DNA of 58,663 nt, from NCBI GenBank assembly GCA_902769535.1, contig CACXPH010000023.1:1-58663 (forward strand). The letters are read 5' to 3'. Below the pieces are notes generated by a model. It saw only the letters and a list, made by a program, of their open reading frames with translations, was not told the DNA's origin and ran no database searches. This document shows, piece after piece, positions 1,029 through 48,425 of this stretch (positions within the stretch are counted from its first letter, which is position 1; each line of letters starts with the position of its first letter). Position numbers and translations under genes: made by a program. The stretch is from an uncultured Bacteroidales bacterium (GTDB lineage: Bacteria; Bacteroidota; Bacteroidia; Bacteroidales; Paludibacteraceae).

Positions 1029-1135
1029 AGTTTAAAGTTTAATGTTTAAGGTTTAGGGGTTAACGGTTAGCGGTTAGCGGTGAGCGGTTAGCGGAATCGA
1101 AAATCTCAAATCTGAAATCTCAAATCTTAAATATT
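1029..1135. repeat. Two heptanucleotide arrays between rpsN and rpsH
   Basis: Positions 1029-1091 read as nine consecutive 7-mers of consensus NGGTTAR (variants AGTTTAA, TGTTTAA, GGTTTAG, CGGTTAG, CGGTGAG). Positions 1101-1135 read as five 7-mers of consensus AAATCTN. The register is kept throughout while the bases drift. This is the longest such array in the window and occupies most of the rpsN-rpsH spacer. No terminator or promoter of the local TTG-N20-TAnnTTTG type is visible in it. Confidence 0.85.
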
Positions 1136-1196
1136 AAACGCAAGTTTAATTAAATATTGTCCCGACAGGCGGGATTAATTTAACAACAAAAAAACA

Positions 1197-1526
1197 ATGA
1201 CAGATCCTATTGCAGATTACCTCACTCGATTGAGGAATGCTTTGTTCGAGAAGGGTTATATCCTCTCCTACAAGTTCGTAGAGGACGGTCCCCAGGGCAC
1301 TATCAAGATTGCCCTCAAGTATGATCCGATGAACAAAGTCAACGCGATCAAGTGTTTGAAACGTGTATCCACTCCGGGTTTGCGTAAGTATGTAGGCTAT
1401 CGTGAGATGCCGCGCGTACTGAACGGTCTCGGTATCGCTATCCTTTCGACCTCGAAAGGTGTGATGACCAACAAAGAGGCGCTCGCTCAGCAACTCGGTG
1501 GTGAGGTTTTGTGTTACGTTTATTAA
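1197..1526 (+). CDS. rpsH: 30S ribosomal protein S8, internally shortened
   Basis: S8 binds the central domain of 16S rRNA. The ORF gives 109 aa where Bacteroidales S8 has about 131. The start ([15 protein letters not shown]) and the remainder from [18 protein letters not shown] to the GGEVLCYVY end are clear. The segment usually between them, about 22 residues including the KANHKVVEIPAS-type stretch and the following helix, is absent, with the frame kept. The missing part includes conserved rRNA-contacting residues, so this copy may not be functional as written. It could be an assembly error: four more genes downstream show the same kind of gap. Confidence 0.85.
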
Positions 1527-1541
1527 TAAGGAGGAACAACT

Positions 1542-2099: not shown

Positions 2100-2116
2100 T
2101 AGAAAGGAATAAGATT

Positions 2117-2461
2117 ATGATTAAGAAAATTGCACGTCGCCTTAAGATTAAGGCATCGATTCGTACCAAGGTGAATGGTACTGCAGAGCGTCCGCGTCTG
2201 ACCGTGTTCCGTTCTAACAGCCAGATTTACGCTCAGGTGATCAATGACCTGGAGGGTAAGACCCTCGCAAGCGCTTCGTCGCTCGCTATCAAGGACAAAA
2301 TGACCAAGACCGAGAAGGCTGCCGAGGTAGGCAAACTCGTTGCCGCTGCAGCAATCAAGGCTGGTGTAAATGAAGTAGTGTTTGACCGTAACGGATACCT
2401 CTATCACGGTCGCGTAAAAGCTCTGGCTGACGCAGCTCGTGAAGCAGGTCTCAAATTCTAA
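2117..2461 (+). CDS. rplR: 50S ribosomal protein L18
   Basis: L18 (114 aa) binds 5S rRNA together with L5. [19 protein letters not shown] and the [27 protein letters not shown] end are diagnostic of bacterial L18. The length is normal and the gene is intact. It follows rplF by 17 nt and precedes rpsE by 11 nt. Confidence 0.97.
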
Positions 2462-2472
2462 TAAGTACGATT

Positions 2473-10544: not shown

Positions 10545-10573
10545 AAAAAAACGGCCTATGGGTCGTTTTTTTA
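10545..10573. terminator. Bidirectional terminator between aspS and the LuxR gene
   Basis: Stem ACGGCC/GGTCGT with loop TATG, flanked by an A-run on the left and a T-run on the right, so it can act in both directions for two convergent genes. Confidence 0.85.
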
Positions 10574-11443
10574 TTCCAGATTGTTGATGTCAACGAGGTG
10601 GTTGACAATGGCATAGACCGTTAGGCCGGCGGTGGAGTGGATGTTGAGTTTAGCGGTGATGTGCTTGCGGTGCGAGACGACCGTGTGCATGGAGATACAC
10701 AGCACATCCGCGATTTCTTTGTTGCTCAGGCCGTGCACAACTTGAATGAGGACGTCCTTTTCCCGGTCAGATAGTTCTTCTGTCTCCGGCTGTAAGTGAC
10801 GGCGGTGGCTGTGCGGCTGAGTCTTCGTCAGCGCCGGACGAAGGATGTCATCTTCGATAGCGCAGTGGTCCGCAAAATCATGTTCCGTGTGCCACAAATC
10901 ACTCATCACACTGATGAGTTGATAGGTGATAGGTGATGGGTTATCGGTTACCGGGGATGGATAGTACTTGATAATTAAATTCTTGATCTCCGTCAGTTTG
11001 TCGGTGATACGCTGGTCGTCGTGTTCGTGTTCGTCAAACAGGCCGGCGTTCTCGTGCTCGATATGCGTCCGAATCTCGTCCACAAACTCATCGTAACAAC
11101 GTAGTATCAGTCCGGGTATCTTAGTGGTCGGGTCAGCAGGAATAATAGCTTCAATCAATGCCCGACGGAGGCGTGGCAAACGGAACTCCAGAAAATACGT
11201 GTGGGCATTGTGCAGATAGCGTTGCAGTGTCGGGATGTCGATGTCGGCAGGTACCACTCGTTGATGGAAAACCTTGTAATTGACAATTGCCAAGAACGTC
11301 GGCGTGTGTACGTCGTGCGCCTCGCACACTTCTGCAATCGTCTGTTCGCCTACACCCATCTCCAAGCCGAAACGGCTGATGATCTGAATCGCATCTTCTT
11401 CACGCGACATCAACTCACATATCTTGTCCGAACCCTTGTACAT
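10571..11443 (-). CDS. LuxR-type regulator with ScdA-like and hemerythrin-like N-terminal parts
   Basis: 290 aa. The N-terminal 60 residues (SREEDAIQIISRFGLEMGVGEQTIAEVCEAHDV) look like the N-domain of ScdA/RIC iron-centre repair proteins, but the CC pair is replaced by MG-VG. Residues about 75-210 carry His/Glu patterns of hemerythrin (HNAHTYFLEF, THIEHENAGLF, WHTEHDFADHCAIEDDIL), which would hold a di-iron site. Residues about 222-285 are a LuxR HTH (LSDREKDVLIQVVHGLSNKEIADVLCIS). I infer a cytosolic sensor of oxygen, NO or iron state. A six-unit heptad array (10919-10960) lies in frame in the linker. A perfect inverted repeat sits 2 nt upstream of the start. Confidence 0.8.
   Translation of the reverse strand: MYKGSDKICELMSREEDAIQIISRFGLEMGVGEQTIAEVCEAHDVHTPTFLAIVNYKVFHQRVVPADIDIPTLQRYLHNAHTYFLEFRLPRLRRALIEAIIPADPTTKIPGLILRCYDEFVDEIRTHIEHENAGLFDEHEHDDQRITDKLTEIKNLIIKYYPSPVTDNPSPITYQLISVMSDLWHTEHDFADHCAIEDDILRPALTKTQPHSHRRHLQPETEELSDREKDVLIQVVHGLSNKEIADVLCISMHTVVSHRKHITAKLNIHSTAGLTVYAIVNHLVDINNLE
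10919..10960. repeat. Heptad array inside the LuxR gene
   Basis: Six 7-mers (TTGATAG, GTGATAG, GTGATGG, GTTATCG, GTTACCG, GGGATGG). 42 nt equals 14 codons, so it adds a Pro/Thr/Ser-rich piece to the protein without changing frame. Confidence 0.8.
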
Positions 11444-12265: not shown

Positions 12266-12301
12266 TCATTTACCATTTTGTCATTTACCATTTACTATTT
12301 A
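12266..12301. repeat. Heptad-like array between two minus-strand genes
   Basis: Units near TTTACCA/TTTGTCA/TTTACTA, with one 8-nt step. It touches the stop codon of the outer-membrane protein gene (12299-12301) and creates false upstream ATGs for the DUF4491-like gene. Confidence 0.65.
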
Positions 12302-15257: not shown

Positions 15258-16424
15258 ATGAACAAGAAATTTATTTTATTTGCCGCATGTGCACTGAGTT
15301 TGGTGGCATGTGAGAACAACGGAGGCGAAGTGACCTCCGACAAGGAAGCGGCGTTGCAGCAGGCAGTTACGCCGTACGTAAACAACACAGTTATTGCGAC
15401 TTACAGCGCCATGGCAGATGCCGGTTTGACGTTGTTGGACCAATGCGAGCAGATCCTCGCCAAAGTGGAAACGGGTCAGGACTACAGCAAACTGATGGCC
15501 GATGCCGGCACGTCTTGGCGTGCGATGCGCAAGCATTGGGAGCAGAGCGAGGCCTTCCTCTACGGACCTGCTTCGGCACACAACATCGACCCGCACATCG
15601 ACTCATGGCCGCTGGATTTCAACGCGATGAACGCCTTGCTGCATGATGCCGAGCGAATGGCGGCGATTGAGGAAGAAGGCGGTGCGTACGTGGGGGACAA
15701 ACTCGGCTATGCGCTGAAGGGTTTCCATGCTGCAGAATACCTGCTCTTTGAATCGGTAGAGCAAGACGGTCGTGCGGTCGGAACAGGTCGTCCGCATGCC
15801 GCTAACCTGACGCACGCCGAGGCGGTTTATCTGCTCGGTATCGTCGAAGACCTGACGCAGCAGGCAATCTTGCTGGAGTACGCGTGGGCAGGCAAAGTGA
15901 GTGACGCCAAGCAGGCGCTGTTGGAAGAAGGCGAAGTGGAGCCGTACGAAGACCGTTACGGATGGCAGATGATGAACGCCGGCAAAGCCGGTTCGATCTA
16001 CGTCACCTACCAAGAGGCGGCGGAAGAGATCGTTGCCGGTTGTATCGACATCGCCGGTGAGGTGGCGGACCTGAAGATGGGCAACCCGTACATCAGCAGC
16101 ACCGCCGAGGAGCGCGATTATATCGAGAGCCCGTACAGCTGCACATCGACGATTGATTTTGCGGACAATATCCGTTCCATCCAGCACGCGTACTGCGGTT
16201 CGCAGGCCGGTGACCATTCTATCTCCAATTACGTCTATCGTCAGGATGCGGAACTCGACGCGCGTGTCCGCAAGGCTATCGAGGACGCTATCAAGGCCAT
16301 CAATGAAATCGGAGATTTTGAGAACACAGCCCAAAACAACCCGCTTGTCAAAGCCGCAATTGACCAAGTCTCCGCCCTCGAAGAAGTACTCGATAAAGAA
16401 GTCCTTCCTCTCCTTTCAAAATAA
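15258..16424 (+). CDS. Imelysin family lipoprotein
   Basis: 388 aa. Lipoprotein signal MNKKFILFAACALSLVAC, with the lipidated Cys at residue 18. The imelysin fold is two four-helix bundles; the GxHxxE motif is visible as GFHAAE (about 155-160), with LYGPASAHNIDPHIDSWPLD upstream as in iron-regulated IrpA-like proteins. Imelysins are linked to iron uptake, but the ligand is not settled. It lies 5 nt after the porin and 45 nt before the di-heme protein. The stop codon is part of an octamer repeat. Confidence 0.85.
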   Translation: MNKKFILFAACALSLVACENNGGEVTSDKEAALQQAVTPYVNNTVIATYSAMADAGLTLLDQCEQILAKVETGQDYSKLMADAGTSWRAMRKHWEQSEAFLYGPASAHNIDPHIDSWPLDFNAMNALLHDAERMAAIEEEGGAYVGDKLGYALKGFHAAEYLLFESVEQDGRAVGTGRPHAANLTHAEAVYLLGIVEDLTQQAILLEYAWAGKVSDAKQALLEEGEVEPYEDRYGWQMMNAGKAGSIYVTYQEAAEEIVAGCIDIAGEVADLKMGNPYISSTAEERDYIESPYSCTSTIDFADNIRSIQHAYCGSQAGDHSISNYVYRQDAELDARVRKAIEDAIKAINEIGDFENTAQNNPLVKAAIDQVSALEEVLDKEVLPLLSK

Positions 16425-16453
16425 CGATATAACGTTATAACGATATAACGAAA
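16422..16453. repeat. Octamer array at the imelysin stop codon
   Basis: Four 8-mers: ATAACGAT, ATAACGTT, ATAACGAT, ATAACGAA. The TAA of unit one is the imelysin stop. The array occupies most of the 45-nt gap before the di-heme gene. Confidence 0.85.
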
Positions 16454-18089: not shown

Positions 18090-19083
18090 GCCGGCTATAT
18101 GGTTGTTGCACATTGCCCTGACGACCATCCTCGTCGGGGCATGTGTGACGCATTTCTTCGGCGAACAAGGAGAAATCCATCTGCGTGCAGATCAAGCGCA
18201 GACCTTGGCTAATGATTATTCAAACATTAGTCTCTTCCTCTGGGACTTTCAGGTGGTTAATGATGCCGATAATAATCCTGTGGATTTCATTAGTGAATTG
18301 CGCCTACTCGATAGAAGCAAGCAACCTTTGGTTGTTGAAGAGGGAATAATTCGGATGAATAAACCTTTGAAGTACCACAACTGGCGGTTTTGCCAATCGG
18401 ACTACGATAGCGACCAACAAGGTGTTGTACTAGCTTACAACTATGATCCGTGGGGCATCGGAATCACGTACACCGGCTATGCCTTGCTGCTCATCGCAAT
18501 GATTGCGTTCTTCTTCCAACGCCGCACCTATTTCCGCGCCATGCTTCGCCAACAGCACAAATGGCTGATGGTCTGTTTGGGTGTAGTGGCCATTATCTTG
18601 GCTTTTGTGATGACAAAAGTGGTCACTCCGAAGCCGCCCTTGCAACCGGTTTTGCAAACACCCTTACTCGGTATTCATGTGTCCGTCATTATGTTGGCGT
18701 ACACGCTATTTGCAGGTATGATGGTGATTGGCATCCTTGGACTTTGTATGCCTAAACGCAGAGAACAACTGATGCATCTCTCGCAGATACTTCTTTACCC
18801 TGCTGAGTTCTGCCTTATGGCAGGTATCTTCATCGGTGCCATATGGGCAAACATGAGTTGGGGACGTTATTGGGGCTGGGACCCGAAGGAGACCTGGGCA
18901 CTGATTACCATGCTCGTTTATGCATTGCTGCTTCACTTACCATGGTTGAAAAGAAAATTTCAGATATCAAATATCAAATTTCAACTATACCACCACGTCG
19001 GTAGTATCATCGCCTTCTTCTTTGTGTTATTCACCTATTTCGGCGTATCGTATCTTTTAGGCGGTTTACATTCATATGCTTAA
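18079..19083 (+). CDS. ccsA: Cytochrome c biogenesis protein, CcsA with ResB-like N-terminal part
   Basis: 334 aa from the ATG at 18079, which overlaps the di-heme gene stop; an ATG at 18058 is also possible. The N-terminal part has one membrane helix and a periplasmic segment (about 30-120) like the end of ResB/Ccs1. The C-terminal part has about six helices with the tryptophan-rich heme-handling motif WGRYWGWDPKETWALI of CcsA. It belongs to System II c-type cytochrome maturation. The neighbour with two CxxCH sites is the obvious client. A heptad array at 18955-18982 gives RKFQISNIKFQLYHH between two helices. A bidirectional terminator follows. Confidence 0.88.
   Translation: MLSKPAIWLLHIALTTILVGACVTHFFGEQGEIHLRADQAQTLANDYSNISLFLWDFQVVNDADNNPVDFISELRLLDRSKQPLVVEEGIIRMNKPLKYHNWRFCQSDYDSDQQGVVLAYNYDPWGIGITYTGYALLLIAMIAFFFQRRTYFRAMLRQQHKWLMVCLGVVAIILAFVMTKVVTPKPPLQPVLQTPLLGIHVSVIMLAYTLFAGMMVIGILGLCMPKRREQLMHLSQILLYPAEFCLMAGIFIGAIWANMSWGRYWGWDPKETWALITMLVYALLLHLPWLKRKFQISNIKFQLYHHVGSIIAFFFVLFTYFGVSYLLGGLHSYA
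18955..18982. repeat. Heptad array inside ccsA
   Basis: Four 7-mers: AAATTTC, AGATATC, AAATATC, AAATTTC. It lies in a cytoplasmic or periplasmic loop between the last two helices, with the frame kept. Confidence 0.8.
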
Positions 19084-19719: not shown

Positions 19720-19754
19720 AAATTTATGATTTATGATTTACAATTTATGATTTA
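19720..19754. repeat. Heptad array in the efp leader
   Basis: Five 7-mers of consensus TGATTTA (AAATTTA, TGATTTA, TGATTTA, CAATTTA, TGATTTA). It lies between the efp promoter and its start, so it is transcribed as part of the 5' leader. Confidence 0.85.
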
Positions 19755-19782
19755 TTTTTTGCCTTTTACCCGAAAATCGCCG

Positions 19783-20911: not shown

Positions 20912-21842
20912 TGCACTAAGGTGCTATAGTAATTACGCACTGAGTCGTTTCGGCTTGGTGCGTATTACGCATATGCCTACGTTCGTCAGCGTCGAACCGG
21001 CGAACGTGTGTCAGTTGCGATGCCCGGAGTGCCCGGTGGGTAAAGGTGAGAGGTTAGAGGAGAGAGGTGAGAGGCTCATGTCTCGCGAGGTGTGGGAGCG
21101 GGTGTTGGAGCAGATTCGCGAGACGGCGCATACGATACAGTTCTATTTCCAAGGCGAACCCTTGTTACATCCCGATCTACCTCAGATGATCCGTGAGGCG
21201 CATGAGGCGGGTCTCTATACGATCGTCAGCACGAACGCGCAGGCGCTCACACAGGAGCGAGCAGAGGCGCTTGTCGCTTCCGGTCTGAACCGCATCATCA
21301 TCTCCATGGACGGTCTGACGGATGAGACGTATAACGCCTATCGGGTAGGTGGTAGTCTTGAGAAGACCAAGGCGGCGCTGCAGTATTTGCGGGAGGCAAA
21401 TGAAAAGTTGAAAGGGCACACGGTTATCGAGTTGCAATGCCTCCGTTTGCGCACGAACGAGCATGAGTGGTCTCAGTTCAAGCGCGTCTATAAACAACTC
21501 GGAGCGGATCGGTTAGTGTTCAAGACCGCACAACTGTACGACTACTCCAACGGGCATCCGTTGATGCCGTCTGACGAGCGTTTTAGCCGCTATGAAAAAG
21601 GAGCGGATGGCTTGTATCACAGAAAGTCCTTACGCCGTGGATGTCTGCGTGTGTGGAGTGGAGTGGTGGTAACTACCAACGGCGAGGTGTTGCCTTGCTG
21701 TTATGACAAGTCACACACCTATGCGTACGGTAATATTATGACGGCTTCACTCAAAGAACTGTTTGCGAACGACAAAGCTCGTGCTTTTCGGAAGGATGCA
21801 TTATCCGAGAACCCCAAAATCTGTCAAGAATGCTGGAGATAA
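20877..21842 (+). CDS. Radical SAM/SPASM domain protein
   Basis: 321 aa from the ATG at 20877, inside the end of rpiB; an upstream TTG at 20862 is also open. The 4Fe-4S motif is C45-x3-C49-x2-C52 (VCQLRCPECPVG). The C-terminal SPASM-like region has GCLRVWSGVVVTTNGEVLPCCYD and ends ICQECWR, giving further cluster ligands. The family includes peptide-modifying and anaerobic maturase enzymes; no precursor peptide is seen nearby. A heptad array at 21045-21072, right after the first cluster motif, gives the GERLEERGERL stretch. The MBL gene starts inside its last codons. Confidence 0.85.
   Translation: MSVALTRSRFTNALRCYSNYALSRFGLVRITHMPTFVSVEPANVCQLRCPECPVGKGERLEERGERLMSREVWERVLEQIRETAHTIQFYFQGEPLLHPDLPQMIREAHEAGLYTIVSTNAQALTQERAEALVASGLNRIIISMDGLTDETYNAYRVGGSLEKTKAALQYLREANEKLKGHTVIELQCLRLRTNEHEWSQFKRVYKQLGADRLVFKTAQLYDYSNGHPLMPSDERFSRYEKGADGLYHRKSLRRGCLRVWSGVVVTTNGEVLPCCYDKSHTYAYGNIMTASLKELFANDKARAFRKDALSENPKICQECWR
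21045..21072. repeat. Heptad array inside the radical SAM gene
   Basis: Four 7-mers: GGTGAGA, GGTTAGA, GGAGAGA, GGTGAGA. It is inserted within ten residues of the iron-sulfur motif, with the frame kept. Confidence 0.8.
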
Positions 21843-22432
21843 AATCCTTTTGTTTTGGTCCGTTTGAGACAAACTGCTATGTAGTTCGTGACGGAAGTAC
21901 CGTCCTGCTCATTGACCCTGCCTGCAGCAACGAATACGAGCAGCAGGAATTATTGGAATACTTCAATTCATTCAACTTTCAACCTTCAACCTTCCACATT
22001 ATTGCCACGCACGGGCATTTGGATCATTTATGGGGTGCTAAATGGGCCACGGAACAATGGAACATACCGGTGTTGATGCACGAAGCGGATATACCGTTGG
22101 CGCAGGCTATGCAACAGCAGTATAACCTCTTCGGGATCCGTCGTACTCCGGAACCTTTCCCAATAAAACCGTACACTATACACCATACACCATACACCAT
22201 TATTCACACGCCGGGACATACGCCCGGAAGTATCTGTCTCTACTGGCCGGAAAAGAATGTCCTTTTCTCGGGTGACACGCTCTTCCGTATGGGATACGGT
22301 CGCACGGATTTGCCCGGAGGAAACATGGGGCAATTAATTGATTCGTTGGAAAAACTCTTCGCGCTTCCGGGCGATGTACATGTCTATCCCGGGCACGGCG
22401 AGGAAACCACTATTGCGGCAGAGCGTAGATGA
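21830..22432 (+). CDS. MBL-fold hydrolase, glyoxalase II-like
   Basis: 200 aa. The metal motif THGHLDH (about 60-66) is followed by the later ligands HTPGHTPGS, FSGDTLF and YPGHGEET, in the order seen in GloB-like metallo-beta-lactamase fold hydrolases of Bacteroidota. The C-terminal substrate domain of true glyoxalase II is absent. Two heptad arrays lie in the gene: 21961-21995 (gives FNSFNFQPSTFH just before the metal motif) and 22169-22203 (gives KPYTIHHTPYTIIHTPG). The start overlaps the radical SAM stop, and the end overlaps the convergent transporter gene by 23 nt. Confidence 0.88.
   Translation: MLEIKSFCFGPFETNCYVVRDGSTVLLIDPACSNEYEQQELLEYFNSFNFQPSTFHIIATHGHLDHLWGAKWATEQWNIPVLMHEADIPLAQAMQQQYNLFGIRRTPEPFPIKPYTIHHTPYTIIHTPGHTPGSICLYWPEKNVLFSGDTLFRMGYGRTDLPGGNMGQLIDSLEKLFALPGDVHVYPGHGEETTIAAERR
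21961..21995. repeat. Heptad array 1 inside the MBL gene
   Basis: Five 7-mers near ACCTTCA (CTTCAAT, TCATTCA, ACTTTCA, ACCTTCA, ACCTTCC), with the frame kept. Confidence 0.75.
22169..22203. repeat. Heptad array 2 inside the MBL gene
   Basis: Five 7-mers near CATACAC (CGTACAC, TATACAC, CATACAC, CATACAC, CATTATT). It encodes a Thr/His/Pro/Tyr-rich stretch just before the HTPGHTPGS metal site. Confidence 0.8.
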
Positions 22433-26528: not shown

Positions 26529-26533
26529 CCAGA

Positions 26534-26565
26534 TGACTAGAGGGCTAGATGACTAGACGACTAGT
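26534..26565. repeat. Octamer array spanning the OstA-like start codon
   Basis: Four 8-mers: TGACTAGA, GGGCTAGA, TGACTAGA, CGACTAGT. The ATG at 26549 is inside the array, which encodes MTRRL. Confidence 0.85.
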
Positions 26566-30803: not shown

Positions 30804-31750
30804 AAATTCTTATAGCACCTTTGAACTGGGGACTCGGACACGCGAGCCGCTGTGTGCCTCTCGTTCAGCGTCTGCTGGGTGAGGGACATGAGGTCATCCT
30901 TGGAGGCGACGGTGAGAGTCTGACGCTCCTGCGTAAACATTTTCCTAAACTGCGTTATGTCTATTTGGCACCACTCAACCTGCGTTACAGTGCAGGCAAA
31001 CGGCAAGTATGGGCGATGGTTAAAGCGCTGCCGCGTATTATCGCTTGGGCACTCAAAGATCATGCGATGATCAAAGCCATCCTTCGCGAAGAACCTCTCG
31101 ACCAAGTCATCTCCGACAACCGCTTTGGCCTTTATTCTGAGGCCACGGAGTGTATCTATATGACGCACCAACTGCACATTATGTTACCGCGTGGTTGGAA
31201 ATGGGCCGAGAATATCGCCTCGCGTGTGCATGCGCGCATATATAGGCGCTATAATAAGGTGTGGGTGCCCGACTACGAAGATAAGGATAAGTGCCTTGCC
31301 GGTGAATTGAGTCATACCGGAGCATCGGTCGAGTATATCGGTCCATTAAGTAGATTCGAGATCACGAGATCACGAGATCATGAGAGCACAATAATTTATG
31401 ACGTAGTCGCCGTATTAAGCGGATTAGAACCGCATCGCACGATGCTTGAGAAAGAGATCCTCGCGCGGTATAGCGGTGGAACGGAGAAAGTACTCATTGT
31501 ACAAGGACTTATGCATCGTCCGAATACACGTATCACACGTGGGGTAGTCACAATCATGCCATATATGTCTGATACGGAATTGGTTGAGGCACTGTGTGGC
31601 GCCAAGCACATCATAGCCCGTTCCGGCTATTCGACCATCATGGATCTAGAGGCTCTCGGTTTATTGGAAAAAGCAGAATTGATTCCTACTCCAGGGCAAC
31701 CTGAACAGGAATATTTAGCATTTTGGGTACAAAAACATAATTTAAAGTAA
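30800..31750 (+). CDS. Glycosyltransferase, MurG-like GT-B fold
   Basis: 316 aa. The N-terminus ILIAPLNWGLGHASRCVPLVQRLLGEGHEVILGG is typical of GT28/MurG-like enzymes that bind a lipid acceptor. C-terminal donor-site segments are VLSGLEPHRTMLE and HIIARSGYSTIMDLEALGL, followed by PTPGQPEQEYLA. Donor and acceptor are unknown. An octamer array (31357-31388, CGAGATCA) encodes FEITRSRDHES at the domain linker. It is the last gene of the dnaG operon. Confidence 0.8.
   Translation: MKILIAPLNWGLGHASRCVPLVQRLLGEGHEVILGGDGESLTLLRKHFPKLRYVYLAPLNLRYSAGKRQVWAMVKALPRIIAWALKDHAMIKAILREEPLDQVISDNRFGLYSEATECIYMTHQLHIMLPRGWKWAENIASRVHARIYRRYNKVWVPDYEDKDKCLAGELSHTGASVEYIGPLSRFEITRSRDHESTIIYDVVAVLSGLEPHRTMLEKEILARYSGGTEKVLIVQGLMHRPNTRITRGVVTIMPYMSDTELVEALCGAKHIIARSGYSTIMDLEALGLLEKAELIPTPGQPEQEYLAFWVQKHNLK
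31357..31388. repeat. Octamer array inside the glycosyltransferase gene
   Basis: CGAGATCA three times, then TGAGAGCA. It lies at the junction of the two GT-B domains, with the frame kept. Confidence 0.85.
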
Positions 31751-32384: not shown

Positions 32385-33230
32385 ATGAAAGAAAATAATA
32401 TCCCTATTGTGGACTGCCCGTACGGCGATTACATGATTGGTGACGCCAGTGGTAAGTTGATGAACGAATACGGTCGTTATCCGTGTAAAATCACATGCGG
32501 TGTGTACGCGCTGCTCGTTCGCGGAACGGCTCATGCGACGATTAACGTGACCGAATATGACTTTAAGGCCAACGACGTGTTGCTGCTCGAGCCGGGCAGT
32601 TTCCTGCTTATCCGTGAGTTCTCCGAGGACGCTCTTGTGTACTGGATCGTGTTCGGAAGTAAGTTCTTGGAGAAATATACGGTGAACAACCGCATGTCCC
32701 TCTCTGCTCTCCAACTCCATTCGCCGAAAGTGAGCGTCAGTGACAATCACGCTAAGGTGCTCTGCATGATGTACGACACGATCGTGGCGGCTCTCAATGC
32801 CGAACCGACGATGCTTAGCACTGAGAAGATGGTACATATCTTCAACCTGCTGCAGACCAGTTATGCCAAGTATGCGCATGAGCAGGACGAGTATTTGGTC
32901 AAGCCGCTGGATCGTAAGACGGAGATCTATCAGGACTACTGCCAACTCGTGCTTCAACATTACCAGGAGTGGCACCATGTGAGTCAGTATGCCGAGGCGA
33001 TGCGCCTGACGCTGCCGCACCTCTGCTCGACCATCAAGTCGGTAGGTGACAGAACAGCCGGAGACATTATTATTGAGGCAATCATCACAGACGCCAAGTC
33101 GCAACTGAAGATCACGAACCTGCAGGTTAAGGAGATCGCGCTTAGCTTAGGCTTTGACAACGTCGCTTTCTTCAACCGCTTCTTCAAGGCCCGTGTTGGC
33201 ATGACTCCCAAGGCATTTAGAAATGCCTAA
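32385..33230 (+). CDS. AraC family transcriptional regulator
   Basis: 281 aa. The N-terminal cupin-like sensor (about 1-130, GTAHATINVTEYDFKANDVLLLEPGSFLLI) probably binds a small ligand. The C-terminal AraC HTH pair is at about 190-281: AEAMRLTLPHLCSTIKSVG for the first and LQVKEIALSLGFDNVAFFNRFFKARVGMTPKAFR for the second, with the typical F-x-R-x-F-K pattern. It has its own promoter and stands alone. The stop codon is in a heptad array, and a bidirectional terminator follows. The target is unknown. Confidence 0.9.
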   Translation: MKENNIPIVDCPYGDYMIGDASGKLMNEYGRYPCKITCGVYALLVRGTAHATINVTEYDFKANDVLLLEPGSFLLIREFSEDALVYWIVFGSKFLEKYTVNNRMSLSALQLHSPKVSVSDNHAKVLCMMYDTIVAALNAEPTMLSTEKMVHIFNLLQTSYAKYAHEQDEYLVKPLDRKTEIYQDYCQLVLQHYQEWHHVSQYAEAMRLTLPHLCSTIKSVGDRTAGDIIIEAIITDAKSQLKITNLQVKEIALSLGFDNVAFFNRFFKARVGMTPKAFRNA

Positions 33231-33256
33231 ATCACAAATTACAAATCACAAATATA
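33229..33256. repeat. Heptad array at the AraC stop codon
   Basis: Four 7-mers: AAATCAC, AAATTAC, AAATCAC, AAATATA. It overlaps the TAA stop. Confidence 0.85.
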
Positions 33257-36485: not shown

Positions 36486-36513
36486 CTTTCAACTTTCAAC
36501 TTTCAACTTTAAA
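36486..36513. repeat. Heptad array at the end of the NfnAB-like gene
   Basis: CTTTCAA three times, then CTTTAAA (minus strand TTGAAAG). It overlaps the stop of the upstream gene; a further partial unit (AACTTTCAACT) is at the dacB start. Confidence 0.85.
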
Positions 36514-39729: not shown

Positions 39730-39757
39730 AAATTAAATATCTTAAATCATAAATCCA
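39730..39757. repeat. Heptad array between psd and deoC
   Basis: Four 7-mers: AAATTAA, ATATCTT, AAATCAT, AAATCCA. It directly abuts the psd stop codon. Confidence 0.75.
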
Positions 39758-40460: not shown

Positions 40461-40495
40461 CAAATCTTAAATCATAAATTTTAAATCATAAATCC
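40461..40495. repeat. Heptad array between the SRPBCC gene and psd
   Basis: Five 7-mers: CAAATCT, TAAATCA, TAAATTT, TAAATCA, TAAATCC. It fills most of the 46-nt gap. Confidence 0.85.
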
Positions 40496-40994: not shown

Positions 40995-41480
40995 TTAGTG
41001 TTTTTGCAGTCTTTTTTGGTATTTTTGTATTTCTAATGACGTGCGCGCCATCCGTTTTTCCAACTCCTTTATGTCCGAAATGGTCACTTGCAACTCATCC
41101 GCACGGGCGACGGCTTTGTTTCCTTCATTCCTTAATTCGTTCACTCGTTCAGTCGTTAACCGTTTCCCTTCCTTATAAACCAGCATCTCCTTCCCGTCGT
41201 CACGAACTAAAATACGTTCTCCGTTCTTCCCTTTAATTACGTAGTTGCCGCGATCTTGGTATTTCTCGTTTTTCTCATACGTGAAATACTGCATTAGACT
41301 GTCTGCCTTTGGCAGCAACAGCTCCAACTGGCTCTCGTAGTACGCCAAACTCCGCTCCTGTTCCTCCAGCCGCACGCTGTCCCGCACGTGCTTTTCTGCC
41401 TTGTACTGTTCCACGCGCGACGGTTTACTGCAACCCAATGCACAGAGCGTCATGATTGCTATAATCCATCCTTTTTTCAT
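40995..41480 (-). CDS. Coiled-coil lipoprotein of unknown function
   Basis: 161 aa from the ATG at 41480. Lipoprotein signal MKKGWIIAIMTLCALGC. Two helical, charged segments (EQYKAEKHVRDSVRLEEQERSLAYYESQLELLL and TTERVNELRNEGNKAVARADELQVTISDIKELEKRMARTSLEIQKYQKRLQ) look like a coiled coil, with a short beta part between. I do not recognise a family. An octamer array (41123-41162) encodes part of the second helix. A Bacteroidota promoter with 20-nt spacing lies just upstream, leaving a leader of only a few bases. Confidence 0.75.
   Translation of the reverse strand: MKKGWIIAIMTLCALGCSKPSRVEQYKAEKHVRDSVRLEEQERSLAYYESQLELLLPKADSLMQYFTYEKNEKYQDRGNYVIKGKNGERILVRDDGKEMLVYKEGKRLTTERVNELRNEGNKAVARADELQVTISDIKELEKRMARTSLEIQKYQKRLQKH
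41123..41162. repeat. Octamer array inside the coiled-coil lipoprotein gene
   Basis: Five 8-mers: CTTCATTC, CTTAATTC, GTTCACTC, GTTCAGTC, GTTAACCG. It encodes TTERVNELRNEGN-type helix residues. Confidence 0.7.
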
Positions 41481-41488
41481 ATCGCTTG

Positions 41489-41520
41489 CAAAGGTACTGC
41501 TTTTTTTCGACATGTGCAAA
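41489..41520 (-). promoter_or_regulatory. Promoter of the coiled-coil lipoprotein gene
   Basis: Minus strand TTTG (41520-41517), 20 nt, TACCTTTG (41496-41489). Confidence 0.8.
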
Positions 41521-41634: not shown

Positions 41635-44600
41635 ATGAAGCATTTTAACGAGTACAAGAAATTGGATTTGCCTGAGCTCAGCAAAGAGGTGCTGGAGCAG
41701 TGGGAACAAGAGAATCTATTTGAAAAAAGTGTATCTACACGCGAAGGTCATCCGCAGTTTTTGTTTTTTGAAGGACCTCCTTCGGCGAACGGTATGCCGG
41801 GTATTCACCATGTGATGGCGCGTACGATCAAGGATACTTTCTGCCGTTTTAAGACGATGCAGGGTTATCAGGTTCGCCGTAAGGCCGGATGGGATACCCA
41901 CGGTCTGCCGGTAGAACTCGGCGTGGAAAAGATGCTCGGTATCACCAAAGAGGATATCGGCAAGAAGATCAGCGTCGATGAGTACAATGCCGCCTGCCGT
42001 CGCGAGGTGATGAAATACACCAAGGAATGGACCAACCTCACCAAACAGATGGGGTACTGGGTGGACCTTGACGACCCGTATATCACGTACGACAACAAGT
42101 ATATCGAGACGCTGTGGTATCTACTTAAGGAGCTCTATAAGAAAGGCTATTTGTATAAGGGTTATACGATCCAACCGTATTCGCCTGCAGCCGGAACGGG
42201 TCTGAGTTCGCACGAGCTCAACCAACCGGGCTGTTATCGCGACGTGAAGGATCTGACCTGCACGGCGAAGTTCCATCTCAAGGACGGCCGATATATCATC
42301 GCGTGGACAACGACGCCGTGGACGCTGCCTTCGAATACCGCACTCTGCGTAGGTCCGAAGATCGATTATATGGAGGTGGAGACGCCATCCGGAGAACATA
42401 TTATCCTTGCTGAGGCGCGTCTGGAAGCCTACCGCAAAGATCTGTGTGCGGAGGATCAAGAGCCGAAGATCGTAGCCCGTTACAAAGGTGCAGACCTTGT
42501 CGGGCTGGAGTACGAACCGCTCTTCCCGTGGGTCAACCCGGGTGAGGGTGCGTATCGCGTGATTCCGGGTGACTACGTGACGACCGAAGACGGTACGGGT
42601 ATCGTGCATATCGCGCCTACCTTCGGTGCGGACGATAAGAAAGTGGGTGACGCTGCCGGTGTGCCGGGTCTCTATATGCAGACTAAGAACTACGGTCCGC
42701 GTCCGATGGTCGACTTCACCGGTAAATACTGGAAGATCGAGGACCTCGACGAAGCGTGGGTAAAGGCGAATGTCAATATCGAACTGTACGGTAAGTATGC
42801 CGGTCGTTGGGTGAAGAATGCCTACGACCCGCAGTTCACGGTGGACGGTAAGTACGACGAAGCGGCGGCAACCAAAGCCGAGTCGCTCGACCTGCACTTG
42901 TGCCTGGAGATGAAAGCGGACGGTCGTCTGCTGCGCACCGAGAAGCATGTGCACTCCTATCCGCACTGCTGGCGAACCGACAAACCGGTGTTGTACTATC
43001 CGCTCGACAGCTGGTTCATCAAATCAACCATGGCGCGGGACGAGATGATAGCGCTCAACCAGACCATCAACTGGCAGCCGGAATCCACCGGTACCGGTCG
43101 TTTCGGACAGTGGCTTAATAACCTCAACGACTGGAACCTCTCCCGTTCGCGTTACTGGGGAACTCCGCTGCCTATCTGGCGCACCGAGGACGGAAGCGAA
43201 GAGATCTGCATCGGTTCGATCGCGGAATTGTTCGAGCAGATCGAGAAATCTATCAAGGCCGGCTTCATGAGCGCCAACCCGTGGCCGAAGCATAAGGTGG
43301 GTGATTACAGCAAGGCTAACTACGACCCGTCTGTCATCGATCTGCACCGTCCGTATGTGGATAACATCGTGCTCGTTTCCCCGAGCGGCAAACCGATGAA
43401 GCGTGAGTTGGATCTTATCGATGTATGGTTCGACTCCGGCGCTATGCCCTATGCACAGAACCACTATCCGTTCGAGAACGCTGACCTGCCGCGTACTGCG
43501 GACTTCATCTCGGAGGGTGTGGATCAGACCCGTGGTTGGTTCTTCACGCTCCATGCGATCCACACGATGATCGAAGGCACGGTGGCATACAAGAACGTCA
43601 TCTCCAACGGCCTCGTGCTCGATAAGAACGGCAATAAGATGTCCAAACGTCTGGGTAATGCCGTGGATCCGTTCGGTGCACTTAATACCTACGGAGCCGA
43701 TCCGGTACGTTGGTACATGCTCACCAACTCCAGCCCGTGGGAGAACCTCAAGTTCGATCCCGAAGGCGTGGATGAGGTACGTCGTAAGTTCTTCGGTACC
43801 CTCTATAACACCTATGGCTTCTTTGCGCTCTATGCTAACGTAGATGGCTGGACTCCTAGTGCAACTAGTTCGACTAGTCAGACTAGTGAAATCGATAAGT
43901 GGATTCTCTCGAAACTCAACTCGCTCGTCAAAGAGGTGACGGAGGCGTACGAGGCCTACGAACCCACCAAAGCCGGACGCGCCATCTCGGACTTCGTACA
44001 GGATGACCTGTCGAACTGGTACGTGCGTCTGAACCGCAAACGTTTTTGGGGTGGCGAGATGGATGCCGACAAGCAAGCAGCCTATGAGACCCTCTACACC
44101 TGCCTCAAGACTGTTGCCCAACTCATGGCACCGAACGCGCCGTTCTACGCCGACCGTCTGTATCGCGATCTCTGCGGTGAGACCGTGCATTTGAGCGAGT
44201 GGCCGAAAGTGAACGAAGCACTCATCGATACGAACCTGGAACGTCAGATGTACCTGGCACAACAGGCGACCTCGATGATCCTCAGTCTGCGTAAACGTGC
44301 CGAGAAGAACGTACGTCAACCGCTGCAGAAAGCCGTTATCCCGACGCCGGACAAAGAGACGACGGAGGCACTGCTCCATGTAGCGGAACTGATCAAGAGC
44401 GAGGTGAACGTGAAAGAACTCGTCATCGTGCCGGCTGAGCAGTCCGAGATTCGACTCGTCAAGAAGATCAAACCGAACTTCAAAGTGCTCGGTAAGAAAG
44501 TCGGCGCTGGCATGAAAGAGCTGGCAGCAGCTATTAATGCGATGAGTCAGGATGATATCGCTAAGATGGAATCCGAAGCTTCTTTCAACTTTCAACTTTC

Positions 44601-44988
44601 AACTTTCAACTGCACGATAGTGCCCGAGGACGTCGAGATCGTAACCGAAGATATGCCGGGTTGGCTCGTGGCGAATAACGGTATATTGACCATTGCACTC
44701 GATATCGAACTGACGGACGAACTGATAGAAGAAGGTATTGCGCGTGAACTCATCAACCGCATCCAAAACCTCCGTAAGTCGTCCGGTCTGGAGATCACCG
44801 ACCGCATCAAGGTGACTATCGAAGATCGTGAGGAAGTGCATAACGCCGTGCTCCATTGCAACGATTACATCGCAGGACAAGTGCTGGCAACAGAGTTGAG
44901 CCTAACGTCTAACTTCCAACAGCAAAGCGATCTAACGTCTATAGAGATGGACGGCTATAACGTGAATATCAAAATAGAAAAAGCATAA
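41635..44988 (+). CDS. ileS: Isoleucyl-tRNA synthetase
   Basis: 1117 aa, class I. HIGH-type motif GIHH in PPSANGMPGIHHVMA (about 52), editing domain around WTTTPWTLPSNTALCV and the KMSKR loop (NGNKMSKRLGNAVDP). The anticodon domain includes GRAISDFVQDDLSNWYVRLNRKRFWGG. Near the C-terminus a CTTTCAA array (44582-44609) adds FNFQLSTFN, and a 9-nt ACTAGT array (43864-43887) adds ATSSTSQTSE. Both fall where homologues vary, and the frame is kept. It is the first gene of a run with a lipoprotein and an AsmA protein. Confidence 0.97.
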   Translation: MKHFNEYKKLDLPELSKEVLEQWEQENLFEKSVSTREGHPQFLFFEGPPSANGMPGIHHVMARTIKDTFCRFKTMQGYQVRRKAGWDTHGLPVELGVEKMLGITKEDIGKKISVDEYNAACRREVMKYTKEWTNLTKQMGYWVDLDDPYITYDNKYIETLWYLLKELYKKGYLYKGYTIQPYSPAAGTGLSSHELNQPGCYRDVKDLTCTAKFHLKDGRYIIAWTTTPWTLPSNTALCVGPKIDYMEVETPSGEHIILAEARLEAYRKDLCAEDQEPKIVARYKGADLVGLEYEPLFPWVNPGEGAYRVIPGDYVTTEDGTGIVHIAPTFGADDKKVGDAAGVPGLYMQTKNYGPRPMVDFTGKYWKIEDLDEAWVKANVNIELYGKYAGRWVKNAYDPQFTVDGKYDEAAATKAESLDLHLCLEMKADGRLLRTEKHVHSYPHCWRTDKPVLYYPLDSWFIKSTMARDEMIALNQTINWQPESTGTGRFGQWLNNLNDWNLSRSRYWGTPLPIWRTEDGSEEICIGSIAELFEQIEKSIKAGFMSANPWPKHKVGDYSKANYDPSVIDLHRPYVDNIVLVSPSGKPMKRELDLIDVWFDSGAMPYAQNHYPFENADLPRTADFISEGVDQTRGWFFTLHAIHTMIEGTVAYKNVISNGLVLDKNGNKMSKRLGNAVDPFGALNTYGADPVRWYMLTNSSPWENLKFDPEGVDEVRRKFFGTLYNTYGFFALYANVDGWTPSATSSTSQTSEIDKWILSKLNSLVKEVTEAYEAYEPTKAGRAISDFVQDDLSNWYVRLNRKRFWGGEMDADKQAAYETLYTCLKTVAQLMAPNAPFYADRLYRDLCGETVHLSEWPKVNEALIDTNLERQMYLAQQATSMILSLRKRAEKNVRQPLQKAVIPTPDKETTEALLHVAELIKSEVNVKELVIVPAEQSEIRLVKKIKPNFKVLGKKVGAGMKELAAAINAMSQDDIAKMESEASFNFQLSTFNCTIVPEDVEIVTEDMPGWLVANNGILTIALDIELTDELIEEGIARELINRIQNLRKSSGLEITDRIKVTIEDREEVHNAVLHCNDYIAGQVLATELSLTSNFQQQSDLTSIEMDGYNVNIKIEKA
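43864..43887. repeat. Nine-nt ACTAGT array inside ileS
   Basis: ACTAGT three times at exact 9-nt steps (43864, 43873, 43882). It encodes a Ser/Thr-rich linker in front of the anticodon domain. Confidence 0.75.
44582..44609. repeat. CTTTCAA heptad array inside ileS
   Basis: Four identical CTTTCAA units. It is the same unit as the 36486-36513 array on the other side of the window. Confidence 0.9.
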
Positions 44989-44989: not shown

Positions 44990-45445
44990 ATGAAAGTATT
45001 CAGCAGTCAGAATTCAGTGTTCAGAATTCTTAGTATCGTTGTGCTGGGCATAGCGATGACAAGTTGTGGTCTTTTTAATAACAACAACCCCGAGTACAAA
45101 CTGAGTGACCTGCAAGGTTTGTGGCTTGAGAATGGAGACGAAACGTTTGGACACTATGTGCGTTTTACGGCAGATTTGTCCGATGAAACGGGTTATTACT
45201 GGGGATGCGAGTGGACAGAATCGGACGATGTTCATGAAGCAGATTTGGTATACCATGGTAACGGTTGGTTTAAGTATTCGTTCGTGTCTGCTGAGTTAAT
45301 CGAGATCCATAAAATGGATCAAGGTTGGGCTGATATTCCGAAGGTATATACCGTTTCCGCATTAACGGATAGCGAGTTAAAATACTACGAAAAAGATAGA
45401 ACAAGCAATAAGTTTAGTTTCTCTAAAGTGGTAGAGGCCAAATGA
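44990..45445 (+). CDS. Small lipoprotein of unknown function, lipocalin-like look
   Basis: 151 aa. Lipoprotein signal with lipobox MTSC. After an Asn-rich stretch the body is beta-rich with LQGLWLENGDETFGHYVRFT and GYYWGCEWTESDD, like small Bacteroidota lipocalin-like domains (xGxW start). The signal peptide is partly encoded by a heptad array of TCAGAAT type (45000-45027). It is 1 nt after ileS and overlaps the AsmA gene by 4 nt. Function unknown. Confidence 0.7.
   Translation: MKVFSSQNSVFRILSIVVLGIAMTSCGLFNNNNPEYKLSDLQGLWLENGDETFGHYVRFTADLSDETGYYWGCEWTESDDVHEADLVYHGNGWFKYSFVSAELIEIHKMDQGWADIPKVYTVSALTDSELKYYEKDRTSNKFSFSKVVEAK
45000..45027. repeat. Heptad array within a lipoprotein signal peptide
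   Basis: Four 7-mers: TCAGCAG, TCAGAAT, TCAGTGT, TCAGAAT. It encodes the SSQNSVFRI part of the signal. Confidence 0.8.
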
Positions 45446-48399
45446 TTAAAGCGCTTAAAATTTTCGGTTGGACGCTGTTCGGCATTGTGATGACGGTAGT
45501 GGTGGTGGCATGCGTGGCCATCTATCTCGTCTTCACCCCCGAGCGCCTCACACCCATCGCCCGCCAAGTGGCGGACAAGTATGTCACCTGCGAACATGAG
45601 ATAGGTGAAGTGGACCTGACCTTCTTCTCTACCTTCCCCCGTTTTGGTCTTCGTGCTGACGGATTGCTGCTGATTAATCCCAAAGCCGGAGCGCAGAACG
45701 ACACCGTGGTGGAAGCCAAACATCTGATCGCGACGGTGGATGTAATGGAGTTTTTGAATCACAACAACCTTCATGTGCATGAGGCAATTTTGGAGGATGC
45801 AGCGGTTCATTTCTTCATTGCGGAAGATGGTACGACCAACCTCACCGGCGCTTTTGTTACAACGCCGGATACGACGGAAGAGGACACGACGGCTTTCTCG
45901 TTGCCGTTCGATGAACTGCGTGTGGATGGCTTGCGTCTGAAGGCCAAAACCATCGATTTTGTAGATATCAAAGACACCATCGAGGCTTCGTTGGGAGAGA
46001 CCGAACTGAGTGCAAAAGCCGACAGTTGGGACGACATACTCGTCACGCTGGAAGCCCATGACGTCTGTGCGTCGCTCAAGGGTGAGCAGTACGCCGACAG
46101 TCTGCACGTAGAGTTGTTGTTGCCGATGGCGATGAACCTCGACTCAATGCATTTTGCCTTGGACGGTGCGCGACTGGCAGTTAATGGTTTTCAGGTGCGT
46201 GTCGAAGGAGAAGTGACATTGGGTGATGCCATCGATATAGATGCGCAAGTCTCTACCGACAAATGGCAAATCAAACCGCTCTTAGCCCTCGTGCCGGCTA
46301 CGTTCACTACTTCGCTCAACGACCTGGATATAGACGGTAAAGTGCAGTTAGACGCAACTGTCAAGGGTACGTACACAGACTCCGTCATGCCGCTCATCAC
46401 AGCTCATGTGACCTTGGAGGACGGCGAAGGTTCCTATAAACCGCTGCCGTATCAACTTCGTGACTTGGTATTGGACGCTGAGGCTACGTTAGATCTGAAT
46501 AAACAGCAACCTTCGACGGTCACGATCAATCAACTGGCTGCGAAGACCAAGAACTCCAAGGTGGGTGCGAAGGGTAAGGTCAATGACTTGTTAGGCAATA
46601 TGCTGCTGGATCTTCAACTGAACCTCGATGCTCATCTGCCGGATTTCGCTTATTTCCTTCCTGACTCGATGACGGTGACGGGTGATGCCAAAGGAACAGC
46701 CGCTGCCAAGATCCGCCTTTCGGACCTTACCAACAAACGTCTGCACAAAGGACGTATCACAGCCGATCTGGACTTGACGGATATCCGGTATGAACAAGAC
46801 TCGATGAAGGCGGTGCTCCCGCGTACGCATGCCAAGGTGCAAATCCCGAACGCTCAGCCTTCCCGCAAGACGGTGAACTGGGCACGGGTGGATCTGGAGA
46901 CGGATAAGATAGATTTCGTCATGGGTGCAAACACGGCTGCATTGATTGATGCAGCAGTCATCCGCGCGGAGGTGGCAAACGTTTTGGCCAATGAACAAGA
47001 CTATTTCGCGTCTATTGCGTTCGATGCACTCGATGCACAGTACGAAGATATTACAGCTGACCTGAAAGCCTCGGAGATAGAAGCATTCGTGAGTGGTGGT
47101 CAGAAAGTGAGTGCCAAACTCAAAACGGCTGCTCTTAACGGTCGTATGGGTGAGGAACTGAAAGCACAGACCGGTAAGTTGGCTCTCGAAGCGGCTGCAC
47201 GCTATAACAAAGACGGCGAGAACGCGTTGCTCAAGTGGAATCCGCGACTGAAGATCGACCTTAAGAACGGTATACTCAACATGCCGGAGCACTTACCCGA
47301 ACCCGTTGTCATTCCCTCCATCGAGTTCAAGTACTCCAACCGCGAGATGACTATCGACAACAGTCGTGTCGAGTTGGGCAATTCCGATCTGGAACTCAAA
47401 GGAAACGTACGCCATATAGGCAAATGGTTCAAGCACGAGGATATACTGCAAGGTGAACTGGAGATCGTCTCCAACCATTGCGATGCCAACCAACTCATGG
47501 CATGGTTCAGTGCCGATGAAGGAAGCGAAGAAGAGGAAATCACCAATCAAAAATCACAAATCACAAATGACTCCGATCCGTCGGAGTCTGATCCTTTCCT
47601 CGTTCCGACGGATGTCGATCTGGCGCTCAATACGCACATGAAGGAAGTGGTTATCTTCAATCAGGTGGCCAAAGATCTGAAGGGTGGTATCTATGTCAAA
47701 GACGGTACGCTGATTCTCGATGAAGTGGGATTTGTATGCCGTGCAGCCAAGCTGCAGTTGACGGGAATGTACCGCACACCGCGGCGTAACCACCTCTATG
47801 TCGGTTTTGACTACCACATGATCGACGTCGATATAGACGAACTGCTGACGATGATACCGAACCTCGAGCAGATGGTTCCGATGCTCAGTTCGTTCAAGGG
47901 AGCAGCGGAGTTCCACCTGGCGGCTGAGACCTATCTCAACAGTCAGTATCAACCGAAGATGAGTACGCTCCGTGGAGCCGCTTCGCTGACCGCCAAAGAC
48001 TTAGTTGTGCTGGACGGCGAGACCTTCTCGAAGATAAGCAAACTGCTCCTCTTCAACAAGAAGACGGAGAACAAGATCGACTCTATCAATGCCGAGATAA
48101 CCGTCTATAAGAACGAGATTGACGTCTATCCGCTCTGCGTCCAGATGGATAACTACATGGTGGCCCTCGGCGGACGGCATAACACCAACATGACCTTCGA
48201 TTATGATATCAACGTCCTCAGCCCTATTTACTTAGGTGTGAACGTGAGCGGAAACATAGACAACCTGCAAATCAAGTTAGCGAAATGTAAGTTCGCGCAG
48301 GATTTCAAACCACACTGGTATCAGAAAGTGGATAACCAATCGCGCGAACTGCGTGAACGCATCAAGCAGTCAATGGAGAAAAATGTGCGCATCCAATAA
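45442..48399 (+). CDS. AsmA family protein
   Basis: 985 aa. One N-terminal membrane helix (FGWTLFGIVMTVVVVACVAIYLVF) anchors a large periplasmic protein. The AsmA N-domain is seen in TFFSTFPRFGLRADGLLLINP; long stretches of beta-strands follow (repeated DLxAxxxxxKG-type units), as in AsmA/TamB/VPS13-like bridges that carry phospholipids between membranes. The C-terminal AsmA_2-like part includes GVNVSGNIDNLQIKLAKCKF. A heptad array (47537-47571) encodes the acidic linker EEEITNQKSQITNDSD. It starts with an ATGA overlap on the lipoprotein. Confidence 0.85.
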   Translation: MIKALKIFGWTLFGIVMTVVVVACVAIYLVFTPERLTPIARQVADKYVTCEHEIGEVDLTFFSTFPRFGLRADGLLLINPKAGAQNDTVVEAKHLIATVDVMEFLNHNNLHVHEAILEDAAVHFFIAEDGTTNLTGAFVTTPDTTEEDTTAFSLPFDELRVDGLRLKAKTIDFVDIKDTIEASLGETELSAKADSWDDILVTLEAHDVCASLKGEQYADSLHVELLLPMAMNLDSMHFALDGARLAVNGFQVRVEGEVTLGDAIDIDAQVSTDKWQIKPLLALVPATFTTSLNDLDIDGKVQLDATVKGTYTDSVMPLITAHVTLEDGEGSYKPLPYQLRDLVLDAEATLDLNKQQPSTVTINQLAAKTKNSKVGAKGKVNDLLGNMLLDLQLNLDAHLPDFAYFLPDSMTVTGDAKGTAAAKIRLSDLTNKRLHKGRITADLDLTDIRYEQDSMKAVLPRTHAKVQIPNAQPSRKTVNWARVDLETDKIDFVMGANTAALIDAAVIRAEVANVLANEQDYFASIAFDALDAQYEDITADLKASEIEAFVSGGQKVSAKLKTAALNGRMGEELKAQTGKLALEAAARYNKDGENALLKWNPRLKIDLKNGILNMPEHLPEPVVIPSIEFKYSNREMTIDNSRVELGNSDLELKGNVRHIGKWFKHEDILQGELEIVSNHCDANQLMAWFSADEGSEEEEITNQKSQITNDSDPSESDPFLVPTDVDLALNTHMKEVVIFNQVAKDLKGGIYVKDGTLILDEVGFVCRAAKLQLTGMYRTPRRNHLYVGFDYHMIDVDIDELLTMIPNLEQMVPMLSSFKGAAEFHLAAETYLNSQYQPKMSTLRGAASLTAKDLVVLDGETFSKISKLLLFNKKTENKIDSINAEITVYKNEIDVYPLCVQMDNYMVALGGRHNTNMTFDYDINVLSPIYLGVNVSGNIDNLQIKLAKCKFAQDFKPHWYQKVDNQSRELRERIKQSMEKNVRIQ
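47537..47571. repeat. Heptad array inside the AsmA gene
   Basis: Five 7-mers: AAATCAC, CAATCAA, AAATCAC, AAATCAC, AAATGAC. The unit AAATCAC is shared with the array at the AraC stop (33229). Confidence 0.85.
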
Positions 48400-48425
48400 A
48401 TCATAAATCATAAATTTGAAATCTA
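48398..48425. repeat. Heptad array between the AsmA and M3 peptidase genes
   Basis: Four 7-mers: AAATCAT, AAATCAT, AAATTTG, AAATCTA. It overlaps the AsmA stop and fills the gap to the next ATG. Confidence 0.85.

Follow-up and report, generated by a model that had tools for sequence, protein, structure and literature searches.

Arrays in the window and across Bacteroidales

This study concerns short tandem arrays, mostly of seven-nucleotide units (heptads), in a stretch of 58,663 nucleotides (contig CACXPH010000023.1 of assembly GCA_902769535.1; the whole stretch is called the window) from an uncultured Bacteroidales bacterium of the Paludibacteraceae. The window is contig C23 of a genome bin of 1.89 Mb in 39 contigs that is 84.85% complete (G000). 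A first-pass annotation, made from the letters alone, had listed 23 places with arrays, of period 7 in most, 8 in some and 9 in one. Tandem Repeats Finder at score 30 returned rows at 22 of them: 17 of period 7, four of period 8 (at 16421, 26531, 31357 and 41120) and one of period 9 (at 43856). The exception was 39730, where no row was obtained at this score and about 2.4 heptads lie at 39739-39755. The arrays at 12267, 18955, 25178 and 44998 are weak, with 72-77% match. They are given below together with the isoleucyl-tRNA synthetase (IleRS) gene used in the ortholog comparison; genes and open reading frames (ORFs) marked as called come from a simple gene caller whose stops are exact and starts approximate, and lines without a strand are unstranded.

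1026..1094: period-7 array, unit drifting from TAAAGTT to TTAGCGG, beginning at the stop of called gene 771-1025
1095..1138: period-7 array AAATCTN, sharing its spacer with the array at 1026..1094
10917..10954: period-7 array TGATAGG, within called ORF 10571-11443 (minus strand)
12267..12301: weak period-7 array CATTTAC, spanning the ends of two called ORFs
16421..16451: period-8 array ATAACGAT, which overlaps the stop codon that ends ORF 15258-16424
18955..18988: weak period-7 array AAATATC, within called ORF 18079-19083
19722..19755: period-7 array ATTTATG, between divergent called genes
21044..21074: period-7 array AGGTGAG, shortly before called gene 21078-21842
21971..21994: period-7 array TTCAACC, intergenic by the gene calls but spanned by a 200-aa ORF, 21830-22432
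22168..22200: period-7 array ACCATAC, in the stretch shared with the array at 21971..21994
25178..25211: weak period-7 array GGTTATG, shortly after the stop at 25171; the next gene is called from 25164
26531..26564: period-8 array AGATGACT, lying between the stop at 26528 and the called start at 26579
31357..31389, plus strand: period-8 array CGAGATCA, within open ORF 30800-31750
33229..33253: period-7 array AAATCAC, in a convergent gap, starting at the stop at 33230
36486..36510: period-7 array CTTTCAA, 3.6 copies, overlapping the stop of ORF 36489-38825 (minus strand)
39739..39755: 2.4 heptads, excluded from the array count
40462..40494: period-7 array AAATCTT/AAATCAT, flanked by two minus-strand ORFs, 39758-40456 and 40503-40934, whose gap it occupies
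41120..41157: period-8 array TTCCTTCA, within called ORF 40995-41513 (minus strand)
41635..44988, plus strand: IleRS gene (Pfam tRNA-synt_1, 1e-111; DUF5915, 3.6e-52)
43856..43887, plus strand: period-9 array in the IleRS gene, in a loop with other inserts in relatives
44582..44611, plus strand: period-7 array CTTTCAA, 4.3 copies, in frame in a loop of the IleRS DUF5915 domain
44998..45029, plus strand: weak period-7 array ATTCAGA, right after the ATG (44990) of the ORF following IleRS, coding its N-terminus
47537..47571, plus strand: period-7 array AAATCAC, within open ORF 45442-48399
48396..48427, plus strand: period-7 array that begins at the stop ending ORF 45442-48399 and reaches an ATG before the M3 peptidase gene; relatives have other arrays or none here

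Within the window 18 rows have period 7, where 50 order-3 Markov sequences gave 0.96 on average, and seven have period 8, where the Markov sequences gave 1.24. For a wider view of this genome we added to the window a 20-kb stretch from each of the 20 contigs C1-C20, which brings the sample to 459 kb, roughly one quarter of the assembly. At score 36 this sample gave 104 period-7 rows, and four order-4 Markov sets gave none. All 20 stretches contain at least two loci of periods 7, 8, 9, 14, 16, 21 or 24. A scan based on IleRS yielded at least 80 named loci of relatives, whose titles read uncultured Bacteroidales, Bacteroidia, Paludibacteraceae or Candidatus Colicola, many naming rumen or gut sources; we divided 80 of them, from their listing, into 48 close and 32 remaining loci. 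With a custom run-scan for period 7, the density was 118 per Mb in the own genome and 122 per Mb in the 48 close loci, 57 per Mb in 20 stretches from 11 other genomes of the genus, 33 per Mb in the 32 remaining loci and 12 per Mb in 20 control stretches from 12 other families. The arrays are therefore genome-wide here, as the first-pass annotation had supposed, and patchy across Bacteroidales, with heptads of many units present also in further small samples of other families, in which two stretches are all N.

One theme could be followed more widely. With four AAATCNN cores, arrays are seen in 56 of the 295 Bacteroidales genomes, each having between 1 and 101 places when overlapping ones are counted. 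Some genomes also contain the reversed control, which there may stand for heptads of other themes. The AAATCNN count was rejected as an index of overall density, because it disagrees with period-7 arrays per Mb: G170 with 94 places has 25 per Mb and G088 with none has 62, both from small samples.

Two further kinds of repeat were seen in the samples. A 16-nt tandem unit resembling TTAGACCGCTTCGCTG stands at two places (window 37459-37538 and L033 6120-6192), and the dispersed words TTGCATATATGCAAA, TGCAAAATTACAAAA and AAGCAGTACCTTTGC, at 8, 7 and 6 places of the 459-kb sample, are perhaps parts of promoters or of dispersed repeats.

Turnover between species

Differences in array content at orthologous loci were observed in the IleRS gene, for which 53 sequences were aligned (the window and 52 of the 80 loci), and at several gene junctions. 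The IleRS loops near residues 217, 302, 745, 986 and 1095 are empty in some sequences and in others contain a hairpin-type insert or an array whose period is 7, 8, 9 or 11. Even between close relatives there are differences: L093 and L102 (tree distance 0.077) each carry an IleRS array where the other has none, and between L078 and L092 (tree distance 0.115) the loops near 217, 745, 847 and 986 differ. Most of the named relatives are titled as metagenome-assembled genomes (MAGs) or isolate bins, so that arrays made by the assembly of metagenome bins had to be considered; arrays are present in bins of several naming series and all 53 aligned IleRS genes keep an open frame, and we regard an artefact as highly improbable.

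The hairpin-type insert (CCCTCTCC...GGAGAGGG or CTCCCTC...GGGGAGGG), recognised by short motifs only, lies in frame in IleRS loops that carry arrays in related species. It was found at the loop near 217 in L071, L073, L076, L078, L086, L101 and L105, and at other loops in L073, L076, L078, L092 and L105. Many species (L067, L072, L079, L080, L093, L100, L102, L104 and others) have in common, at the loop near 745, roughly three copies of the 11-nt unit CCGACGGTCAA.

The spacer that separates the M3 peptidase gene from the 985-aa ORF shows a similar turnover, relatives having other arrays or none there. Two more junctions were compared in loci from the best 30 of 58 and the best 30 of 61 matching genomes. 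For the junction upstream of tryptophanyl-tRNA synthetase we used the 27 loci whose protein identity is 84% or more; ten are bare (at most 4 nt), nine have an array and eight have neither, and the nine arrays have nine different leading units; upstream of GalE the corresponding numbers are eight, five and five of 18 loci. One and the same junction across the genus is bare, carries an array with the same unit, or carries an array with another unit.

We also compared 16 close pairs, some of which enter in both directions, giving 47 comparisons with both flanks located. Length was equal in 23, differed by a multiple of the period in five and the content was otherwise different in 19 (one being a run of N). 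Four of the five multiples concern period 11, two of them being one pair in both directions, and the period-7 case is presence versus absence. A difference of one unit was seen in none of the 31 period-7 comparisons, 14 of which have equal length; all pairs are of different species and many of the loci are coding. Phase-variable contingency repeats are marked by unstable copy number within a species; between the close species compared here, period-7 arrays showed no step in copy number.

Placement and units

Among 91 arrays of periods 7 and 8, 28 lie inside genes. The other 63, which are intergenic, are closely tied to stop codons: 44 have an edge within 12 nt of one, as against a fraction of 0.119 by random placement, and in the 48 relative loci this holds for 30 of 74 (random placement 0.114). 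Starts are the weaker anchor, with a called start, itself approximate, within 12 nt of 23 of the 63. Gaps holding an array in the own sample comprise 47 of 296 tandem, six of 23 convergent and four of 28 divergent gaps. With the own genome and relatives pooled, 99 arrays start within 40 nt of the end of a stop, and 54 of them fall in a peak that extends from 5 nt ahead of this end to 4 nt past it. A heptad that includes a stop codon would, at three copies, close all three frames, and the annotated stop would then fall within the array; part of the stop adjacency may be due to this. The ATG beyond an array agrees with the array register in 1.26 of 3 bases, as compared to 0.92. AAATC in tandem spacers is oriented in sense 22 times and in antisense 10 times.

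Such a placement invites the suggestion that arrays before starts are sites for an RNA-binding protein of the S1, Csp or Csr type and tune translation. Arrays do occupy the gaps between stop and start, AAATC has the sense bias just given, a composite sequence described below adjoins a stop, in sense orientation, at 13 of its 20 loci, and a model of this kind has been suggested for TAACTGA repeats in Beggiatoaceae (PMC4679880). The unit at a junction, however, varies between species, many species have no array there, and nearly a third of the arrays are intragenic, which makes a regulatory role of this kind quite improbable.

The first-pass annotation had also described units that differ by locus around common themes, with the register kept while bases change, and both descriptions hold. 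A set of 112 arrays has 59 distinct consensus units, and 74 of these arrays have an exact unit in common with another array, as compared to 10-41 in six random sets. Units with one-sided G or C content number 40 of 74 (23.4 expected), or 20 of 45 distinct units (13.75 expected). The differences between copies look like ordinary point mutation, since the fraction of transitions in period-7 arrays is 0.40 in the own genome and 0.47 in relatives, near the 0.46 of four-fold sites, and unit drift within arrays is explained in this way. A transversion-rich spectrum was considered and rejected: it appeared odd against all third positions (0.65) and the oddity was gone against four-fold sites. A fixed AAAT anchor with a free linker was likewise rejected, as variation is concentrated by phase only mildly: variable phases number 89 against 96.1 expected (sd 2.6) in the own genome and 114 against 119.8 (sd 2.7) in relatives, with no such effect for periods 8 and 11.

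Origin of the arrays and relation to known repeats

The lengths of arrays outside genes (own genome and 48 relative loci) show no excess of two-copy arrays, as 27 of 14-16 nt were observed and 24 in shuffled sequence. From 17 to 34 nt the distribution is flat at 151 arrays versus 12 shuffled (123 versus 5 at 20-34 nt), and it drops beyond 34 nt, with 19 arrays of 35-40 nt and 15 longer. The reading we favor, with a probability of about 0.5, is that short arrays are born with several copies together, are kept where tolerated and decay by point mutation. Such births would recur in the genus, producing arrays of about 17-35 nt with mostly 7-nt units, when a replication or repair polymerase slips serially or switches template and so reads one short stretch over and over within a single event. 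Some new arrays may be copied from existing ones through template switching, and placement would mostly reflect where an insert is tolerated. Multi-copy birth is supported by the missing two-copy excess and by a density far above that of shuffled sequence and of other families. The turnover at junctions, the stop adjacency, the in-frame IleRS arrays, the close pairs, the mutation spectrum and the recurring composites described below also speak for this reading. Most likely the arrays are mutational products without a single function.

Alternatively, ordinary stepwise heptad slippage, the mechanism put forward for heptanucleotide repeats at large, may build the arrays while contraction or selection removes those longer than about 35 nt. 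The flat length distribution outside genes would fit this, as would the higher-order periods 14 and 21 and a survey in which heptads were the most abundant long-repeat class in most genomes (cited in PMC4679880 and PMC4692102). It is made unlikely by the two-copy arrays, which are not in excess, and by the close pairs, none of which differs by one heptad, many of them being coding.

Copying is suggested by sequences that recur at unrelated loci. The composite AAATCATAAATTTG[AC]AATCAT has 31 matches at 20 listed loci of the own genome, and at 13 of these a called stop, in the direction of the motif, has its end at most 13 nt ahead of the motif start or at most 9 nt past it. It is found in 32 of 121 genomes of the genus and in two of 295 of the order, both belonging to this genus. 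In G014 another composite stands before two genes 10 kb apart and occurs in none of 60 other genomes. This doubled composite, at G014:C8 42343 and 52365 (L299, L300), has heptads in both directions (TTAGC then GCTAA) and could fold back. Aperiodic 18-mers are shared by 36 of 6216 array pairs within the own genome versus 21 of 20272 pairs between it and relatives. Among relatives, however, arrays of one genome share such 18-mers in 1 of 382 pairs, which does not exceed the 41 of 15908 pairs for arrays of different genomes with unrelated flanks and counts against copying within genomes.

One way to explain such recurrence is copy-and-paste micro-elements: blocks of about 30-55 bp spread by an activity that favors stop-start junctions, with period 7 as its structural need. 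The composites, the own-genome 18-mers, and the sense bias of AAATC together with stop adjacency agree with this. The sharing counts of the relatives speak against it, as does the lack of local clustering of same-unit arrays, and a genome-specific vocabulary could alone raise sharing within the own genome. REP elements are moved by Y1 transposases. Neither a Y1 transposase nor a reverse transcriptase was matched in G000, itself 85% complete, which also counts against the copy-and-paste form; 22 of 61 genus genomes have the former (18 above cut-off) and 15 of 61 the latter. No enzyme is implicated in array formation. The mixed outcome of the sharing test lowered somewhat the odds of both copying explanations. 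We consider the copy-and-paste form doubtful, and slightly more doubtful still its more speculative relative, in which self-spreading micro-elements of about 30-55 bp, with neither ends nor genes of their own, would use period 7 as a good donor and acceptor for template switching, seed new arrays at stop-start junctions and loops, and replace each other between related species, independently in several Bacteroidales families. The first-pass claim that simple slippage of one unit is not the cause finds partial support in the missing two-copy excess and in the composites at unrelated loci, with a mixed outcome from the sharing test; the base changes among copies resemble ordinary point mutation.

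Several results weigh against multi-copy birth with occasional copying as we propose it. Besides the sharing counts of the relatives, local copying was rejected, as same-unit arrays form 15 neighboring pairs versus 14.5 by permutation, and the non-random vocabulary of units is not expected from plain slippage. Seeding from the local stop is unsupported, because a stop just outside the array is out of its register (1.10 of 3 bases versus 1.06). A sharp birth size of 32 nt was weakened once genes and gaps were analysed apart: the pooled hump near 30 nt stems largely from genic arrays, with orthologous IleRS arrays counted repeatedly, and the flat lengths outside genes might also come from a fast stepwise process. 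At the many coding loci of the close pairs a 7-nt step would break the frame, and the proposed births are read from comparison across species, with no case seen at strain level.

By their form the arrays resemble the short tandemly repeated repetitive (STRR) sequences of cyanobacteria, tandem heptanucleotides of several unit types; a mention for Calothrix is found in PMC4692102. This likeness, drawn by the first-pass annotation, stands for form alone. Rickettsia palindromic elements are short dispersed sequences, palindromic and longer than those here, that lie in frame in coding genes; the in-frame placement is alike, whereas the present sequences are tandem arrays.

In bacteria, repeats of seven nucleotides form an established class (Mrazek 2007, cited in PMC4679880 and PMC4692102), with units such as GGGAATC in Xanthomonas and GGGGA(C/T)T in Nostoc (PMC4692102). 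That the preference for seven bases stems from a polymerase footprint was proposed earlier (PMC4679880, PMC4692102). The present arrays, with tandem 7-nt units above chance, are like these heptanucleotide simple sequence repeats in their period, few copies, mostly intergenic position, lineage-dependent density, and length and sequence that vary among close relatives. They differ from the system of PMC4692102, which follows one G-rich unit, by their many consensus units and intragenic members. The first-pass annotation knew of no description in Bacteroidales, which holds in part: MacGregor 2015 (PMC4679880) reports TAACTGA direct repeats in five Bacteroidetes including Paludibacter (two sets), with other heptamer repeats adjoining the TAACTGA sets in some of the five. 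Like the TAACTGA repeats of Beggiatoaceae, cyanobacteria and these Bacteroidetes, our heptads lie in intergenic gaps, some of them near approximately called start codons. The TAACTGA direct repeat TAACTGATAACTGA itself is absent from the 459 kb of the own genome and from the 48 relative loci, and heptamers related to TAACTGA are rarely repeated in that system, unlike here, where many are. DRT10 (PMC12632851) makes short-period tandem DNA by reverse transcription, each system having a single RNA as its template (9 nt in the main example); the product is alike, but no reverse transcriptase was found in the incomplete G000.

In searches of an open-access library, judged mostly from listings, we found no account of arrays with comparable density and unit diversity in Paludibacteraceae. 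What is new here is the density, the unit diversity, the in-frame placement and the turnover, heptads themselves being already known in Bacteroidetes (PMC4679880). If births are truly multi-copy and fast, the arrays would offer dozens of natural experiments on the seven-base preference noted in 2007 (cited in PMC4679880). They would likewise illustrate the origin of operon spacers and of small in-frame inserts within essential enzymes, and array loci would be usable to distinguish related gut species.

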